Part shown: piece by piece, positions 3,043 to 40,875 of the stretch | Numbering within the stretch: position 1 is the first letter of the stretch | Layout: each line of letters starts with the position of its first letter | Assembly: GCA_035495615.1 (NCBI GenBank) | Contig: DATJFP010000016.1 | Location: 1-43,489 of the forward strand | Source of the DNA: Verrucomicrobiia bacterium | GTDB taxonomy: Bacteria > Omnitrophota > Omnitrophia > Omnitrophales > Aquincolibacteriaceae | DNA length: 43,489 nt | Direction of reading: 5' to 3' | The notes under the pieces: generated by a model | What the model was told of the DNA's origin: nothing | The model's input: the letters and a program-made list of their open reading frames with translations, nothing else | Databases searched by the model: none | Program-made: the position numbers and the translations under genes

Positions 3043-3864
3043 CTAGAAAAAGTAAAAAACGGCGGTGAAAAGGGCGTCGGAGGCAATGATCAGCACGAGC
3101 GCGCAGACGACGGCCATGGTCGTGGCGCGTCCCACGCCTTCGGCGCCGCCCGAAGCCCGGAACCCGAAATAGCAGCCGACCGTCGAAATAATGCCGCCGA
3201 AAAAGAACGCTTTAAGAAGCCCGGTCATCACGTCTTTGACGACCATGACGTCCACGCTGCGCTTCAGGTACTGGTGCGAGCTGATGCCGAGCTTGAAGAC
3301 GGCGATGAGATAGCCGCCCATCATGCCGACAATGTCCGAATAAATCGCCAGCATGAACAGCATGAAGAACGCGGCGATGAAGCGCGGGACCACGAGGTAG
3401 CGCACCGGGTCCACCGCGAGCGCTTTCAGCGCATCGATCTGTTCCGTGACTTTCATGGTGCCGAGTTCCGCGGCAATGGAAGCGCCGACGCGGCCGGCCA
3501 CGACCATGGCCGTCAGCACGGGTCCCAGCTCGCGGCAGATGGAAAGCGCGACAAGGTCTGAGATGAACTGCTGCGCGGCAAAAAGTTTCAGCTGGTAAGC
3601 GGACTGCAGCGCGAGCACCATGCCGGTGAAAAGGGCCGTGAGAAAAACGAGCGGCAGCGAAGTCACGCCGATCTTCTGCATCTGGTTCACGGTCAGCTTC
3701 CACTTGATGGGCGTCTGCGTCATGGATTTGATCGTGTCGACGAAGAGAAGGCTGAGGCCGCCCGCGTGATAGGCGAGCTGCATGGACAGGACTCCCACCG
3801 TGCGGAAATAATGATGGATGGGCAAAAATTTGCGCAGCGTTTTCAGATTTTCGTTCACGTGCAT
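3043..3864 (-). CDS. mlaE: MlaE-like phospholipid ABC transporter permease
   Basis: The 273-residue membrane protein has the MlaE permease pattern: an amphipathic N-terminal helix and about five membrane segments, with the conserved core ELGPVLTAMVVAGRVGASIA and ELGTMKVTEQIDAL. It forms the inner-membrane channel of the Mla phospholipid pathway with MlaF and MlaD. The start chosen (MHVNENLK) gives a length close to the family norm of about 260. It lies downstream of an AsmA-like gene, separated by a 71-bp gap that contains one copy of a dispersed 48-bp repeat. Confidence 0.92.
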   Translation of the reverse strand: MHVNENLKTLRKFLPIHHYFRTVGVLSMQLAYHAGGLSLLFVDTIKSMTQTPIKWKLTVNQMQKIGVTSLPLVFLTALFTGMVLALQSAYQLKLFAAQQFISDLVALSICRELGPVLTAMVVAGRVGASIAAELGTMKVTEQIDALKALAVDPVRYLVVPRFIAAFFMLFMLAIYSDIVGMMGGYLIAVFKLGISSHQYLKRSVDVMVVKDVMTGLLKAFFFGGIISTVGCYFGFRASGGAEGVGRATTMAVVCALVLIIASDALFTAVFYFF

Positions 3865-3884
3865 AAGTCGCTTCTTTCCATTGC

Positions 3885-3932
3885 CCCCTCACCCTTCCCT
3901 CTCCCCTTAGGGGAGAGGATTAAGGAGAGGGG
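3885..3932. repeat. 48-bp dispersed repeat, copy 1 (inverted relative to copy 2)
   Basis: The element fills the gap between the AsmA-like gene and mlaE. It contains the inverted repeat CCTCTCCCC-TTA-GGGGAGAGG (about 3899-3919) flanked by further pyrimidine/purine-rich arms. It matches the reverse complement of 20571-20618 at 46 of 48 positions by eye. The hairpin could act as a weak terminator or mRNA-stabilising structure, but there is no T-run after the stem on the minus strand. Confidence 0.8.
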
Positions 3933-3935
3933 CGG

Positions 3936-5834
3936 TTAAAATTTGATCTTGGGCCCCACGGCCGCGTAATTTTCTTCCGTCAGCGGGTCCGACTCGCCGA
4001 GCCGCGTCCCCTTGTTTTCGTTTTTCAAATCCAGGTTGAGCGTGGACAGGCGCGAGAGCACGTCCAGCTCCAGATTGCTGTCCGCCTCGTTGGCGCTCAG
4101 CGACATTCCCTTCCACAAAATGAGCTTGTCCGCGGTCTCGACGCGCACGCCCGCGAGGATGTTGTCCAGCGAGAGATCGAACGCGCCGACCAGATGCAGC
4201 GTGGTCCTGCCCTTGAAGATGCGCGAGTCATCCAGCGCGAGATACGGCGGGAAGCCGCGGAACTGGATCATGGCGCGGTCGAATTCCAGCTTGCCGAGCG
4301 CGCCGTCTTTGATGCTGAAAACGCCGGAGACGTCGGGCTTGCGCGCCGCGCCTTCGATCTTGAGCTTGCCTTCGGCCACGCCGCGGAGCGGCGGCAGCGG
4401 GCGCGCCGCGAATTCCTTGGCGCCGGCCAGGTCGAGGCCGGAAACTTTCAACGCGAGATCGCATTCCGGCTCGCGGCGGTCCAGCATGACCTTGCCCGTC
4501 ATTTCGAAAATGCTGCCCCACGCGCCGGAAAAATCCTTGATGCCGCGCGGGTCGAGACGGAACTTGCCGCGGAAATCATCGAACGGCTCCTGCTCGAGGA
4601 TAAAATAGTCCGTGGAGAAATTCGCCTGGAATTCCCACGCGTCATTGCCCCAGCTCGGCTCCACGGGCGTAAGTTCCACACGCGAGGCCATGACGAGATC
4701 CATGCCGAAAAAATCCAGGTGATTCAGGTCGAGTCCGAGCGTGAAGTCCAGGCCGCTCAGATTGGACGTGACGCTCAGGCGCTGAAAGCCGTTTTCGAAA
4801 GCGAGAGAATAATCCCCGCTTTGGAAATCCAGCATGCCGCGCCCGGACTGTCCGCCGCTGGTCGTGAGGTTTTCGAGAAAAATTTTCGTGGCCTCGCGGC
4901 GGATTCCGCCCTCGAATTCGAAGCGGCGGCCCGCGAGAAAACCCGCGGAAGCATGAATTTTTTGTTTGGCCAGGTCCACGGACGCTTCAAGCCTGCCGAG
5001 CCTTTCGTTTTTACCCAGGTCCATGGCCAGGCGCAGCACAGGCGAATTTCCGCCGTCCATCGACGCCTCGAGAACGCTTTCCCATCCATGCGACTTCACT
5101 TTGAGAGGCCCGGCGCGGAAATTTCCGTTTTCCAGCGTGAGCGCGCCGCGGATGTCTTCGAGGTCCACGGGAAAATCACCGGACAGGCGCGCGCCTTCCA
5201 GCATCACTTTGATGCCGTACTGCTTTTTCAGCAGGTCGACGTAGGCCTTGAGATGAAACGGCCCGCTCAGCACGCCTTCGGCGCTGGCCTTGAAGTCCAG
5301 GTTGGCAATACCGTTGAAGCCGGGCCTGAAGCTGCCGCGGATTTCGCGCAGGATGACCGGCGTATTAATTCCCGGCACCCGGCACTTGATGCGCCCGTCC
5401 CGGAAATCGATTTTCGAAAAAAGCGAACGCAGCGCTTCGTTCTGGGAACCGGCCAGGACGTCGCGCAGGACAAGCGGATCTTCCACTTCCAGGCGCGGGG
5501 CTTCCAGGAAGATGCTGCTGGGAATCCTGAAATTGCGGCTGAGAAGCTGCGTCAGAGGATAGCGGAAAACCGCCCGCGGGATTTCGAGGCCCACGCGGGA
5601 CGGAGCTTCGCCTTTTTCGATGACGATGCCGGTGAGAAGGACTTTGTTGAAGGAACGGACCTGGATGCTTCCGATGGCCACCCGGCCGCCGAACTTGGCC
5701 TCGAGGTGCTGCATGGCCGCGGCCTTGAAGGCGCCCGTCTGGACGTAGCGCTGCAAGAAACCATAGGCCGCGCCCATCGCGAGCAAAAAGCAAACCGACA
5801 GGCCGGCAAAGAAACGGCGGAAGCCTTGGGTCAT
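3936..5834 (-). CDS. AsmA-like lipid-transfer family protein
   Basis: A 632-residue protein with an N-terminal signal anchor (about 8-27) and then a long periplasmic region rich in alternating beta strands. The opening after the anchor, with a conserved Leu-Glu-Ala-x-Phe-Gly-Gly-Arg-Val pattern near 43-52, is the AsmA/TamB-like entry module. These proteins form hydrophobic grooves that carry phospholipid between membranes. It starts immediately after clpC (11-bp gap) and is followed by mlaE-mlaF-mlaD, which supports a lipid-transport role. It is shorter than TamB and YhdP and closer to AsmA or YicH in size. The family call is by pattern and context rather than by a diagnostic residue. Confidence 0.72.
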   Translation of the reverse strand: MTQGFRRFFAGLSVCFLLAMGAAYGFLQRYVQTGAFKAAAMQHLEAKFGGRVAIGSIQVRSFNKVLLTGIVIEKGEAPSRVGLEIPRAVFRYPLTQLLSRNFRIPSSIFLEAPRLEVEDPLVLRDVLAGSQNEALRSLFSKIDFRDGRIKCRVPGINTPVILREIRGSFRPGFNGIANLDFKASAEGVLSGPFHLKAYVDLLKKQYGIKVMLEGARLSGDFPVDLEDIRGALTLENGNFRAGPLKVKSHGWESVLEASMDGGNSPVLRLAMDLGKNERLGRLEASVDLAKQKIHASAGFLAGRRFEFEGGIRREATKIFLENLTTSGGQSGRGMLDFQSGDYSLAFENGFQRLSVTSNLSGLDFTLGLDLNHLDFFGMDLVMASRVELTPVEPSWGNDAWEFQANFSTDYFILEQEPFDDFRGKFRLDPRGIKDFSGAWGSIFEMTGKVMLDRREPECDLALKVSGLDLAGAKEFAARPLPPLRGVAEGKLKIEGAARKPDVSGVFSIKDGALGKLEFDRAMIQFRGFPPYLALDDSRIFKGRTTLHLVGAFDLSLDNILAGVRVETADKLILWKGMSLSANEADSNLELDVLSRLSTLNLDLKNENKGTRLGESDPLTEENYAAVGPKIKF

Positions 5835-36998: not shown

Positions 36999-37391
36999 CT
37001 ACGTTTTCTTCAGCTTGAGCGAAACGGAATTAATGCAGTAGCGCAGCCCCGTGGGCCTGGGTCCGTCGTCAAACACGTGGCCGAGATGCGCCTCGCAGCG
37101 CGAGCAAAGCACTTCGATGCGCCGCATGAAATGGCTGTTGTCCGCTTTTTTCTCCACGGCCTGTTCATTCGCGGCCTTCCAGAAACTCGGCCAGCCCGAG
37201 CCGGAATCGAATTTCGTGTCCGAAGAAAAAAGCTCCTGACCGCAGCCGGCGCACTGGTACACGCCTTTTTCCTTGGAATTGCAGTACTCGCCCGTGAACG
37301 GGCGCTCCGTTCCTTTTTGGCGCATGATCTCATACTGCTCGGGCGTCAGCTCTTTTTTCCATTCCGCGTCGGATTTTGTAATTTTGTCCAT
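36999..37391 (-). CDS. msrB: peptide-methionine (R)-S-oxide reductase MsrB
   Basis: A 130-residue MsrB. The catalytic Cys is C119 in RYCINS, the zinc ligands are C47/C50 and C96/C99 (CAGC, CSRC), and GSGWPSF and [10 protein letters not shown] are the family signatures. It reduces methionine-R-sulfoxide in proteins with thioredoxin. There is no signal peptide, so it acts in the cytoplasm. GGAG lies upstream of the ATG. A stand-alone MsrB without MsrA is common. Confidence 0.97.
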
Positions 37392-37501: not shown

Positions 37502-37885
37502 TTAATAGTTTGAAAATGCAATGGTCCTTTTCTTGCCCGGGTCGCGGATGAAAAGCTCGGCTTCGTCCGGGCGGTGATAATACGCCGCGATCCAGTGGTC
37601 TTTATAGGTCTCGCTGAAATCGATGCCGGAAAACGTCACGTCCGGCGTGTTGACCCTGTCATCGAAAAAACACACAGTGGTCATGGTTCCGGGCCCGTCC
37701 CACGCCTGCGCCTGCGCGAATTTTTTCATGCCGTCCCAGTCGAGCTCCGGCGCGTACACCGAAATCACGCGATCGTATTTGCCGCTCTCGATTCTTTTTT
37801 CGTTTTTTCCCACGATCTGGAAATCGGCGGCAAAGGCCGGCGCGGTCAAAAAAAGCGAGAGGACAAGGGCCGCGAGCGTTTTCAT
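37502..37885 (-). CDS. small secreted protein of unknown function
   Basis: The 127-residue product has a clear signal peptide (MKTLAALVLSLFLTAPAFAA, about 1-20) and a mature part of about 107 residues with one cysteine (C72) and no motif I recognise. Its start overlaps the stop of the upstream trypsin-like protease gene in an ATGA arrangement, so the two are co-translated. The protein may be a substrate, inhibitor or partner of the protease; only the coupling supports that. Confidence 0.75.
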   Translation of the reverse strand: MKTLAALVLSLFLTAPAFAADFQIVGKNEKRIESGKYDRVISVYAPELDWDGMKKFAQAQAWDGPGTMTTVCFFDDRVNTPDVTFSGIDFSETYKDHWIAAYYHRPDEAELFIRDPGKKRTIAFSNY

Positions 37886-38826
37886 GCCGAAGGCTCCCCC
37901 ACCGGGCCGGCCAGCTCGGTTTGCACGGCCGCCGCCGGTTTTTGCCGCGCCTTTTCGATCACTTCCAGGATGGCGTCCATAGGGACGACCACCGAATAGC
38001 CGGAATTTTCGATTTCCCTGATGTTGAAGGGCCTCTGGATGCCGTACCACTTGTCGTCGAAAGGAATGAACTCCGCGACCATGCCCACGATGGCATAAGA
38101 CGTGCCGGAAAGTCCGATCGGTTCCGTTTCCACAACCGGCCCGCCGCTGTTGCCGTAAAAGACCGGGCAGTCCAGGATCATGGTTTTCTTCTCGTTGTTT
38201 TTTCCCGCGATCACGCCTTTGCGCAGAAGCGGCCGCGTGTAATCGATCTGCGGATAATTCTCGATGCCGAGCGAATTCGGGTAACCGAAGATGAACACGT
38301 CGTTGCCGATCGGCACTTCGTCGTACTTTTTGATCATGGCGCGGCTCGCGCCCACGATGCTGCCTTCGCTCGGCGTTGTCCCGGCCTTGACCACGCGGTC
38401 CACGCCGCCGTTAAACTGCAGCGACTTGCCCCGGGGCGTCAGAACCACGCTGCCCAGCTTGATGACGGCCACGTCGTTGGTCTCGTGAGAATAAATAAAT
38501 CCCGCCACATTGAGGACCTTGAGATCGAGCTGAATCAGGATCGGCTCCTGGAACTGGTCTTCCTGAGGGTACGACGACAGAAGCGCCTTCTGCCCTTTCA
38601 GGTCCGAACGGCCTTCCTTGGCCTGATCGTAAAACAGCAGGTGTTTGGCCGTGACGAAATAGGCGTCCCCGTTGTCATCCATTATATAGAAGCCGCTCGC
38701 GGCCCGGCCGTCTTCCAGCGTGACCGAAACGGGATATTTAATGTAGTCCGCGGGCAGGGCCGCACCGGCATGAGCCGAGGGCGCCCAAATCAAGACAGCG
38801 ATCAGAAGAAGGAAAAGTTTTCTCAT
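37882..38826 (-). CDS. periplasmic trypsin-like serine protease
   Basis: A 314-residue protein with a signal peptide (1-20, ending SAHA) and a chymotrypsin-fold domain. The catalytic triad is visible: H62 in FVTAKHLL, D118 in ETNDVAVIKL and S227 in GNSGGPVVE. There is no PDZ domain, unlike DegP/DegQ. The start overlaps the stop of the thiamine-binding-like gene by one base (TAATG), and the downstream gene encodes a small secreted protein. Role and substrates are unknown; quality control or processing of a secreted protein are the obvious options. Confidence 0.85.
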   Translation of the reverse strand: MRKLFLLLIAVLIWAPSAHAGAALPADYIKYPVSVTLEDGRAASGFYIMDDNGDAYFVTAKHLLFYDQAKEGRSDLKGQKALLSSYPQEDQFQEPILIQLDLKVLNVAGFIYSHETNDVAVIKLGSVVLTPRGKSLQFNGGVDRVVKAGTTPSEGSIVGASRAMIKKYDEVPIGNDVFIFGYPNSLGIENYPQIDYTRPLLRKGVIAGKNNEKKTMILDCPVFYGNSGGPVVETEPIGLSGTSYAIVGMVAEFIPFDDKWYGIQRPFNIREIENSGYSVVVPMDAILEVIEKARQKPAAAVQTELAGPVGEPSA

Positions 38827-39192: not shown

Positions 39193-40161
39193 TCACCTGT
39201 CTTGATTCCCGGCCAGCTCTTCCTCCTCGCGAGACAAGCGACCCATTTCCGTGCCGAACGAATCGTCGGCGCGGAAGCCAAGTTCTTTGGGCCTGCCGAG
39301 TTTGTCTCCGAATGGGTCCGGCGGCTGGAAGCGCGGATCTTTCGGGATCAAATCATCGTCCGCATCCAGGTCATAATCGAGGACCGAGCCGTCCTCTTTC
39401 TCGCGGTGATAGTGATGCTTCCAGGTCCCGTCCGGCTGCCGCGTCGAAGTGATCGTGCCACCGCTCGGTGTTTTCGTCACGACCGGCTCCTCCGGCTTGA
39501 CCGTCGGCGCGGAAGATTTCGGTTCTGCCGGCTTCGGCGGATCGTAAACCGGATGGCCCTTGGGATAAAGGTCGTCGTCGGGCTTCAAGTCGTAATCCAC
39601 AACGTTGCCGTCTTTGTCCTCGCGGCGGTAATGATGGCTCCACGAGCCATCCGGATTTTGCGTATGCGTTACGGTGGCGCCGCTTGGCAAGGTGTCCGTT
39701 TGAGTCACCGGAGGGAGCGCGGGAGGCGGCGCAGGAGCTCCTGCCTTTCCCCCGTCTGCCGGCGGGACCGCGGGGTCCCCTGAATTTTTTTCTCCGCCGG
39801 CCGGCACGGTTTCGACGAGTTTTCCGTCTTTGTCGACAATGTCATAGCCGCCGTCCCCGCGGGGACGCAGCCCGCCTCCCGGCGGCACGCGGTCCCAGAC
39901 CGTGCCCCTCATGTCTTCGGGACCCCAGGGTTTTTGCGGCGCGGCGGGCGCAGGCGCCGGAGAATCCCCGGCCGGTTTTCCCTCCCGCGTCACAGTCTTG
40001 ATCACCTTGCCTCCCTTGTCGACGACGTCGTAATTTCCATCCTGCCGCGGCCGGATCCCTCCGCCCTCAGGCGCGTGGTCCCACGGCGTGCCCGCGGCGG
40101 CAAGGCCGCAATGGAAAGCAAGCCCCGCGGCCAAAAGAAAATATCTAAGACTTGCACGCAC
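39193..40161 (-). CDS. secreted protein with two pairs of tandem repeats
   Basis: A 322-residue protein of unrecognised family. A signal peptide (about 1-23) is followed by two copies of an approximately 40-residue repeat A (24-66 and 86-123; common core GGG-[IL]-RPR-x-DG-x-YD-[VI]-VDK), a Pro/Ala-rich linker, two copies of an approximately 54-residue repeat B (156-208 and 229-283; core PDG-[ST]-W-x-HHY-x-RE, then DYDL and a DDDL cluster), and an acidic tail. The Asp-rich ends of repeat B could bind metal. The start is GTG with AGGAG upstream. No function is assigned; it is predicted to be periplasmic or surface-exposed. Confidence 0.8.
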   Translation of the reverse strand: MRASLRYFLLAAGLAFHCGLAAAGTPWDHAPEGGGIRPRQDGNYDVVDKGGKVIKTVTREGKPAGDSPAPAPAAPQKPWGPEDMRGTVWDRVPPGGGLRPRGDGGYDIVDKDGKLVETVPAGGEKNSGDPAVPPADGGKAGAPAPPPALPPVTQTDTLPSGATVTHTQNPDGSWSHHYRREDKDGNVVDYDLKPDDDLYPKGHPVYDPPKPAEPKSSAPTVKPEEPVVTKTPSGGTITSTRQPDGTWKHHYHREKEDGSVLDYDLDADDDLIPKDPRFQPPDPFGDKLGRPKELGFRADDSFGTEMGRLSREEEELAGNQDR

Positions 40162-40173
40162 GGCGGTCTCCTT

Positions 40174-40875
40174 TCATGACGGACGTTTCATCCAGGATTG
40201 GTTGAGAAAGACCCGCATCTTTTTATAATGTGATCCCGGCCAATAAATTCGGCAGCATTGGCAGCATTGGAAAAAACGGTTGAAATGCCGGCGCGTGTTC
40301 GGAAGCAGGCGGTCCAGCACCGCGGCTTTGCTGACCCGCCTTAACCTTCCGTTGCATGCCAGGCACAAACGAAACGGCCGCGGCCGGAGCCCCGGCATAC
40401 GCGCGAGAACCTCTTTTAATTGAAGCGCCGGCGCATCGTTCCTGAGCCAAAACCCGCGCGCCCGGCGCCGCTTCAAAAGCCCGACGTCGCGCGTCAGCAC
40501 AAGCCGTCTTTCTCTACGAGCCTTCTCGACAAGCGCAGCGTCATCATAATCGTTGCGGTAGGCCGCGTCAAAACCCAGAAGCCTCAGATGCCGCGCAAGT
40601 TTGCCGAGCGGAACGTCCAGCGCAAACCGCGCGCTGCGCCGCGCGCCGAAATCCGCGGGCCAGGCCTCCACTTTCCCGCTCCCCGCGCGCCGCGAAAGCC
40701 GCGCCGCCCTGCCGTCCAGCGTCACGCGCCCGATCTCCGCCTGCGGCACGCCCAGCGCCTGCAGCGTATCCAGAAGCGCCGGGATTCCCCGTACGTCCAG
40801 TTCGAGCCAATGGTTCCTAGACGCAGGCCTCAGAAAATCATTCAAACAGCCGTGAAAGCGTACCCGGATCTTCAA
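40174..40875 (-). CDS. Mut7-C family putative ribonuclease with ubiquitin-like N-terminus
   Basis: A 233-residue protein. The N-terminal 80 or so residues look like the ThiS/ubiquitin-like Mut7-C-associated domain; the middle (about 85-170) is the PIN-like Mut7-C domain with LGKLARHLRLLGFDAAYRND and LVLTRDVGLLKRR; the C-terminus holds a zinc ribbon with CLAC and CCQC pairs. Related proteins are predicted RNases. The start is TTG at 40875 because GGAGG lies 5 bases before it and it begins 14 bp after the uvrC stop; a longer TTG start at 40914 would overlap uvrC. Confidence 0.8.
   Translation of the reverse strand: MKIRVRFHGCLNDFLRPASRNHWLELDVRGIPALLDTLQALGVPQAEIGRVTLDGRAARLSRRAGSGKVEAWPADFGARRSARFALDVPLGKLARHLRLLGFDAAYRNDYDDAALVEKARRERRLVLTRDVGLLKRRRARGFWLRNDAPALQLKEVLARMPGLRPRPFRLCLACNGRLRRVSKAAVLDRLLPNTRRHFNRFFQCCQCCRIYWPGSHYKKMRVFLNQSWMKRPS

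Follow-up and report, generated by a model that had tools for sequence, protein, structure and literature searches.

A probably exported Omnitrophota protein built from two different pairs of duplicated modules

The locus and the A-A-B-B gene

The window, the whole stretch of DNA that was analysed (43,489 nucleotides), is one entire contig; the draft genome to which it belongs has 106 contigs and a size of 3.16 Mb. On its minus strand, a gene with a GTG start (39193..40161) encodes a protein of 322 aa with two internal duplications in the order A-A-B-B. The gene call is supported by the open reading frame coordinates, which agree exactly with the initial annotation, and by a homologue with identical module order. 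The ribosome-binding site AAAGGAG (40168..40174, minus strand), read directly in the sequence, lies 6 bases 5' of the GTG and overlaps the stop codon (40174-40176) of the upstream Mut7-C gene. Because of this overlap, the two genes are probably translated from a shared message. A promoter and terminator scan gave nothing useful, and shuffled sequences contained more terminator-like sites than the real one.

The minus-strand neighbours are, in order, uvrC (by sequence), the Mut7-C gene, the A-A-B-B gene, and genes encoding an MTH1187-type thiamine-binding protein, a trypsin-like protease and MsrB (by sequence). The protease, two genes downstream on the same strand (37882-38825), is probably exported and matches Trypsin_2 at E 5.6e-9. 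The homologue's gene sits between genes encoding a SPOR-domain protein and a glycine-cleavage T-like protein (the latter by sequence); since the neighbourhoods of the two homologues differ, the neighbours give no function. Mut7-C was found in 4 of the 27 family genomes, the own genome counted; the other three are without the A-A-B-B gene, and none was seen in those three loci. In both genomes a gene identified by sequence as MsrB is no more than about 2 kb away from the A-A-B-B gene, once on the one side and once on the other (36999-37391 in the window; 3790-4311 in locus L007), and this proximity is probably a coincidence.

The protein has a charged start followed by FLLAAGLAFHC and then LAAA/G. 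From the sequence and its hydropathy, an N-terminal signal peptide is plausible, probably residues 1-23 (40093..40161, minus strand) with a cut at LAAA/GTPW. The protein would thus probably be located outside the cytoplasm, which agrees with its initial description as secreted. Pro (13.4%), Gly (12.4%) and Asp (11.5%) are prominent in its composition.

Module layout, age of the duplications and predicted fold

All modules and linkers lie on the minus strand, and the modules were delimited by repeat comparison and AlphaFold2. Module A1 (residues 24-64; 39970..40092), predicted as a three-stranded meander, is followed by a Pro/Ala-rich linker (39907..39969; pLDDT <50 at residues 65-86) and module A2 (residues 86-125; 39787..39906). 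A Pro/Ala/Gly-rich linker containing APAPPPALPPV (39703..39786; pLDDT <50 at residues 123-150) leads to module B1 (residues 154-211; 39529..39702), which is predicted to form a meander of four strands, with turns at NPDG and DKDG, and has an Asp-rich tail. The linker B1-B2 (39484..39528; pLDDT <50 at residues 203-223) precedes module B2 (residues 227-283; 39313..39483), also predicted as a four-stranded meander. The two earlier linkers are predicted to be disordered, as is the charged C-terminal tail (39196..39312), which is poorly conserved in the homologue comparison.

Both duplications stand far above chance. A1 and A2 gave a local BLOSUM62 score of 130 with 59% identity over 37 residues, and B1 and B2 a score of 173 with 60% identity over 50, the top score in 2000 shuffles per pair being 56 for A and for B. 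A against B scored 25, the level of the shuffles, which bears out the claim that the two duplications differ. The idea that A and B diverged from a single module was ruled out on this score, and also by an hhalign probability of 1.4% and by the A profile, which reached 4.8 bits on B against 9.2 for the top shuffle.

The repeat cores GGGxRPRxDGxYDxVDK and PDGxWxHHY had been read correctly for the window protein. The homologue is less strict in its A core, which reads GGSLEPKSDGSYVIRDK and GGTWTPMADGSQVIRDR, so neither RPR nor the Tyr defines it; constant across the four A copies are the residues G, W, D, P, GG, P, DG, D and T.

In the codon-level comparison proposed in the initial annotation, the same codon was used at 8/21 identical residues between the A copies (8.9 expected) and at 11/26 between the B copies (11.7 expected), with the expectation derived from the codon usage of the A-A-B-B gene. 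Codon sharing is at chance level; the synonymous sites have therefore reached saturation, and conservation has acted on the protein sequence. Both duplications are old, without recent homogenisation at the DNA level.

The AlphaFold2 model of the full-length protein (2 sequences) had a mean pLDDT of 56.8 and a pTM of 0.23; values of 70-90 were reached by 109 of its 322 residues, with beta elements nearly all within the four modules, and the linkers stayed below 50. For B2 alone (38 rows), the mean pLDDT was 76.2 and the pTM 0.54, with 16/66 residues at 90 or above. This model has four strands at 10-13, 19-24, 30-37 and 43-48, in blocks at pLDDT about 83-90, and the Asp-rich tail is its low-confidence part (about 58). 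B is thus predicted as an antiparallel meander of four strands with turns of the PDG type and A as a meander of three, and this prediction supports the suggestion that the repeats form small beta modules.

Foldseek gave 0 matches at E ≤0.001 for both models (full length and B2). VIA-align on the same models gave best Z values of 4.4 and 4.8 and no row at 5 or above; among the sub-threshold rows were a teneurin-like protein, PUR repeats and blades of beta-propellers, all of which were taken to reflect a common meander arrangement. Weak PDB profile matches were an RNA polymerase subunit for the B-type repeats (E 0.00042) and the amylase-binding protein AbpA for A (E 0.0089).

The homologue and the kin of the B module

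The search in related genomes, which had likewise been proposed, returned one homologue, in genome G031, from another family of the same Omnitrophota order. It has the identical A-A-B-B order, 47% identity and a signal-peptide-like start, and an orphan or artefact was ruled out since it retains the module order. The full-length search matched 3 of 39 genomes at E ≤0.1, namely the own genome, G031 and G019; the G019 match (E 0.036) falls in a helicase-like ORF (by eye) and was taken as chance. With the own genome counted, the protein is present in 2/47 genomes of the order and, by a two-row profile, in 2/384 genomes of the phylum, and it had no match among the plasmids, phages or viral contigs searched. 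Of the 73 pattern matches from a scan of genome contigs with A-module patterns only, 1 was a relative. The A module was matched in 22/384 further genomes at E ≤0.1 (best 0.002), where about 38 are expected by chance, and these were taken as chance; one A-profile match (L036) lies inside a secretion-type inner-membrane protein (by eye).

For B, identity across species is 70% between the B2 modules and 59% between the B1 modules, compared with 60% within the window protein and 70% within the homologue. QNPDGSWSH is common to the B1 copies and T-R-x-PDGTW to the B2 copies in both species, which favours a B duplication that predates the split of the two species. The A copies are 64% alike within the homologue, compared with 41% between the A1 modules across species, and these data do not settle the order of the A duplication and the species split.

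Beyond the two known proteins, the B profile matched 20/384 genomes at E ≤0.1, fewer than the about 38 expected by chance. Its top extra match (E 0.0032), in genome G036, leads to a protein with 11 head-to-tail copies of 48 aa and the pattern T-G-I-T-T-T-S-T-R-N-x-D-G-S-R-T-V-T-x-T-D. This locus (L010; G036:C20, about 173309-175021) is an open frame of 762 aa in which one partial copy precedes the 11 tandem NPDGS repeats of 48 aa, and a search of plasmids with nine of the copies as query gave no match.

A profile (A5) was built from the 11 G036 copies alone, without the window's B modules. It matched 11/368 Omnitrophota genomes at E ≤0.001, the source genome among them, and it found B1 of the window protein (39595-39699) at E 3e-4 and B1 of the homologue at 2.4e-5. 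Its scores on the two A-A-B-B proteins were 19.3 and 20.2 bits, whereas the top score in 10000 shuffles (5000 of the whole protein and 5000 of the B half; 2211 and 3649 gave any score) was 6.3. On B2 alone, A5 scored only 6.8 bits in the window protein and 9.9 in the homologue. Comparison of the B profile with A5 by hhalign gave a probability of 88.8% and a pair E of 2.5e-6; for the A module against the NPDGS repeat, the probability was a weak 19%. The simplest reading of these profile matches would be that B and the NPDGS-type repeat share descent; the alternative is that B resembles the repeat by convergence on a simple Thr/Asp/Gly hairpin.

B shares with the unnamed NPDGS-type repeats (L010, L082, L084, L089 and others) a strand-turn-strand of the form G-x-T-x-T-S-T-x-N-P-D-G-[ST], a second D-x-x-G turn and probably exported hosts, and the profiles match both ways, weakly from B and clearly from the repeat. 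B differs in 2 extra residues in strand 3, in W-x-H-x-Y-x-R in place of a Thr row and in its Asp-rich tail, and the NPDGS-type copies are closer-set and often lie within far larger proteins. The W/H/Y row is thus a peculiarity of the A-A-B-B proteins, Thr residues forming this row in the wider repeat. The B1 and B2 cores start at residues 170 and 243, 73 residues apart across a linker predicted to be disordered and not in 48-aa head-to-tail spacing, so B is a relative of the tandem NPDGS type and not a member.

A strongly hydrophobic stretch (11-residue mean ≥2.4) was observed in the first 80 residues of 10 of the 12 other NPDGS-repeat ORFs examined, and the two without it (L010 and L083) are both 5'-incomplete in the sequence used; the repeats therefore probably occur mostly in exported proteins. 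In L082 (G001:C122) and L084 (G189:C1), large and probably exported, the repeats are followed by long charged coiled-coil-like stretches. These two proteins have long conserved parts in common (by eye), though they come from different families. The last stretch of L084 contains a VHEYAHS motif, and L084 reads like a protein whose C-terminal domain is variable. L085 (G189:C2), an ORF of 906 aa, combines two NPDGS repeats with a motif like that of metalloproteases (HELGHAIGMPHH), and it matches Pfam Peptidase_M66 at only E 0.061.

RHS/YD repeats (PF05593) of exported bacterial proteins are short and form beta-hairpins that turn at DxxG, features that the B modules would share. PF05593 matched neither the window protein nor its B module, and 1/38 members of the B-type alignment at E 0.0012. 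TIGR04203-type repeat-containing surface proteins also carry tandem surface repeats; 3/38 alignment members match TIGR04203 (best E 0.00012), and the window's own B module gave no match. A match to a known domain family, which would have removed the novelty seen in the initial annotation, was sought, and none was found for the window protein in Pfam or NCBIfam, nor a significant one by Foldseek. The description "no recognised family" holds in this sense; as a claim of orphan status it fails, as B resembles a diverged Omnitrophota repeat.

Proposed role and alternative explanations

We would give an even chance to the reading that the A-A-B-B protein is exported and serves the cell envelope as a modular scaffold or binding protein (or adhesin) with no enzymatic role. 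Two A and two B beta-meander beads would hang on flexible Pro/Gly/Ala-rich linkers, and because each bead pair would present its binding surface twice, individually weak contacts may sum (multivalency). A multivalent binder or scaffold would be the simplest function for duplicated beads on such linkers. Pfam and NCBIfam searches found no catalytic or anchoring domain in the protein, and the analysis revealed neither a partner nor a surface anchor nor a signal for outer-membrane export.

The binding surface of B would be one face of the open sheet, with exposed Thr and Trp-His-Tyr-Arg residues. Constant in 4/4 B copies (numbering of alignment A4) are T10, T12 and T14 in strand 2, W21, H23, Y25 and R27 in strand 3 and D36 in strand 4, and E28 and the turn residues are constant as well. 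Because the former residues alternate along neighbouring strands joined by a PDG turn, they should lie on one face of the sheet, as worked out from hairpin geometry and not from coordinates. Candidate partners would be a polymer of the envelope, some other protein or an adjacent cell. The scarcity of the protein even in closely related genomes argues against a general envelope role.

This rarity (2/47 order genomes, 2/384 phylum genomes) and the differing neighbours would also fit a lineage-specific, fast-turning surface or periplasmic protein, a modular filler with no single key partner whose beads are kept for folding only. We consider this unlikely, since saturated synonymous sites together with 59-60% identity between copies indicate long selection on the protein sequence, and the A-A-B-B order is kept between families.

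The initial annotation had proposed metal binding through Asp clusters, and the Asp-rich B tails or the His-rich strand HHYHRE might hold calcium or a transition metal. The B modules end in DYDLKPDDDLYP and DYDLDADDDLIP, strand 3 of B2 has three His, and the first His and an acidic residue of the next strand are constant in 4/4 B copies. However, the first His alone is constant among the His, the Asp tail is poorly predicted, and no EF-hand, dockerin, RTX or other calcium- or metal-binding family was matched in Pfam or NCBIfam. The turn Asp is no sign of metal binding because Asp is ordinary in PDG-type beta-turns. The case for metal binding does not extend beyond composition, and we regard it as improbable.

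It is similarly doubtful that B works like the TCP (G-box, PF07202 Tcp10_C) domain of CPAP/Sas-4, with aromatics binding proline-rich strands, perhaps linkers of its own type, which would lead to self-assembly. In the account of PMC3776556, the TCP domain is a stable single-layer antiparallel sheet with PDG turns and no hydrophobic core, in which aromatic, His, Thr and Glu residues bind a polyproline-II peptide. The predicted B sheet resembles it in being open and antiparallel with PDG turns and exposed aromatics in a W/H/Y/R row, and a proline-rich linker lies directly before B1. One of the 38 B-type alignment members matches Tcp10_C (E 0.0051), and a Sas-4 chain (4mpz) appeared at E 1.2 in the profile search. 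Against this, neither B2 nor the whole window protein matches Tcp10_C, PDG turns are widespread in beta-hairpins, and the TCP domain has about 20 strands where B has 4, and is eukaryotic and intracellular. A full exported bacterial counterpart of the TCP/G-box principle, in which core-less sheets would bind proline-rich strands, own linkers included, to form an extracellular network, is very improbable.

Nothing points to an unusual mechanism for the A-A-B-B protein, and a modular binder or scaffold of the cell envelope is the reading that we prefer. Large extracellular proteins of Omnitrophota are thought to serve adhesion and are described as poorly understood in one account (PMC10066038). 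To these, the present analysis adds a probably exported protein and a wider repeat, both without a curated family, and the NPDGS-type repeat family is a more useful lead than the single A-A-B-B protein.
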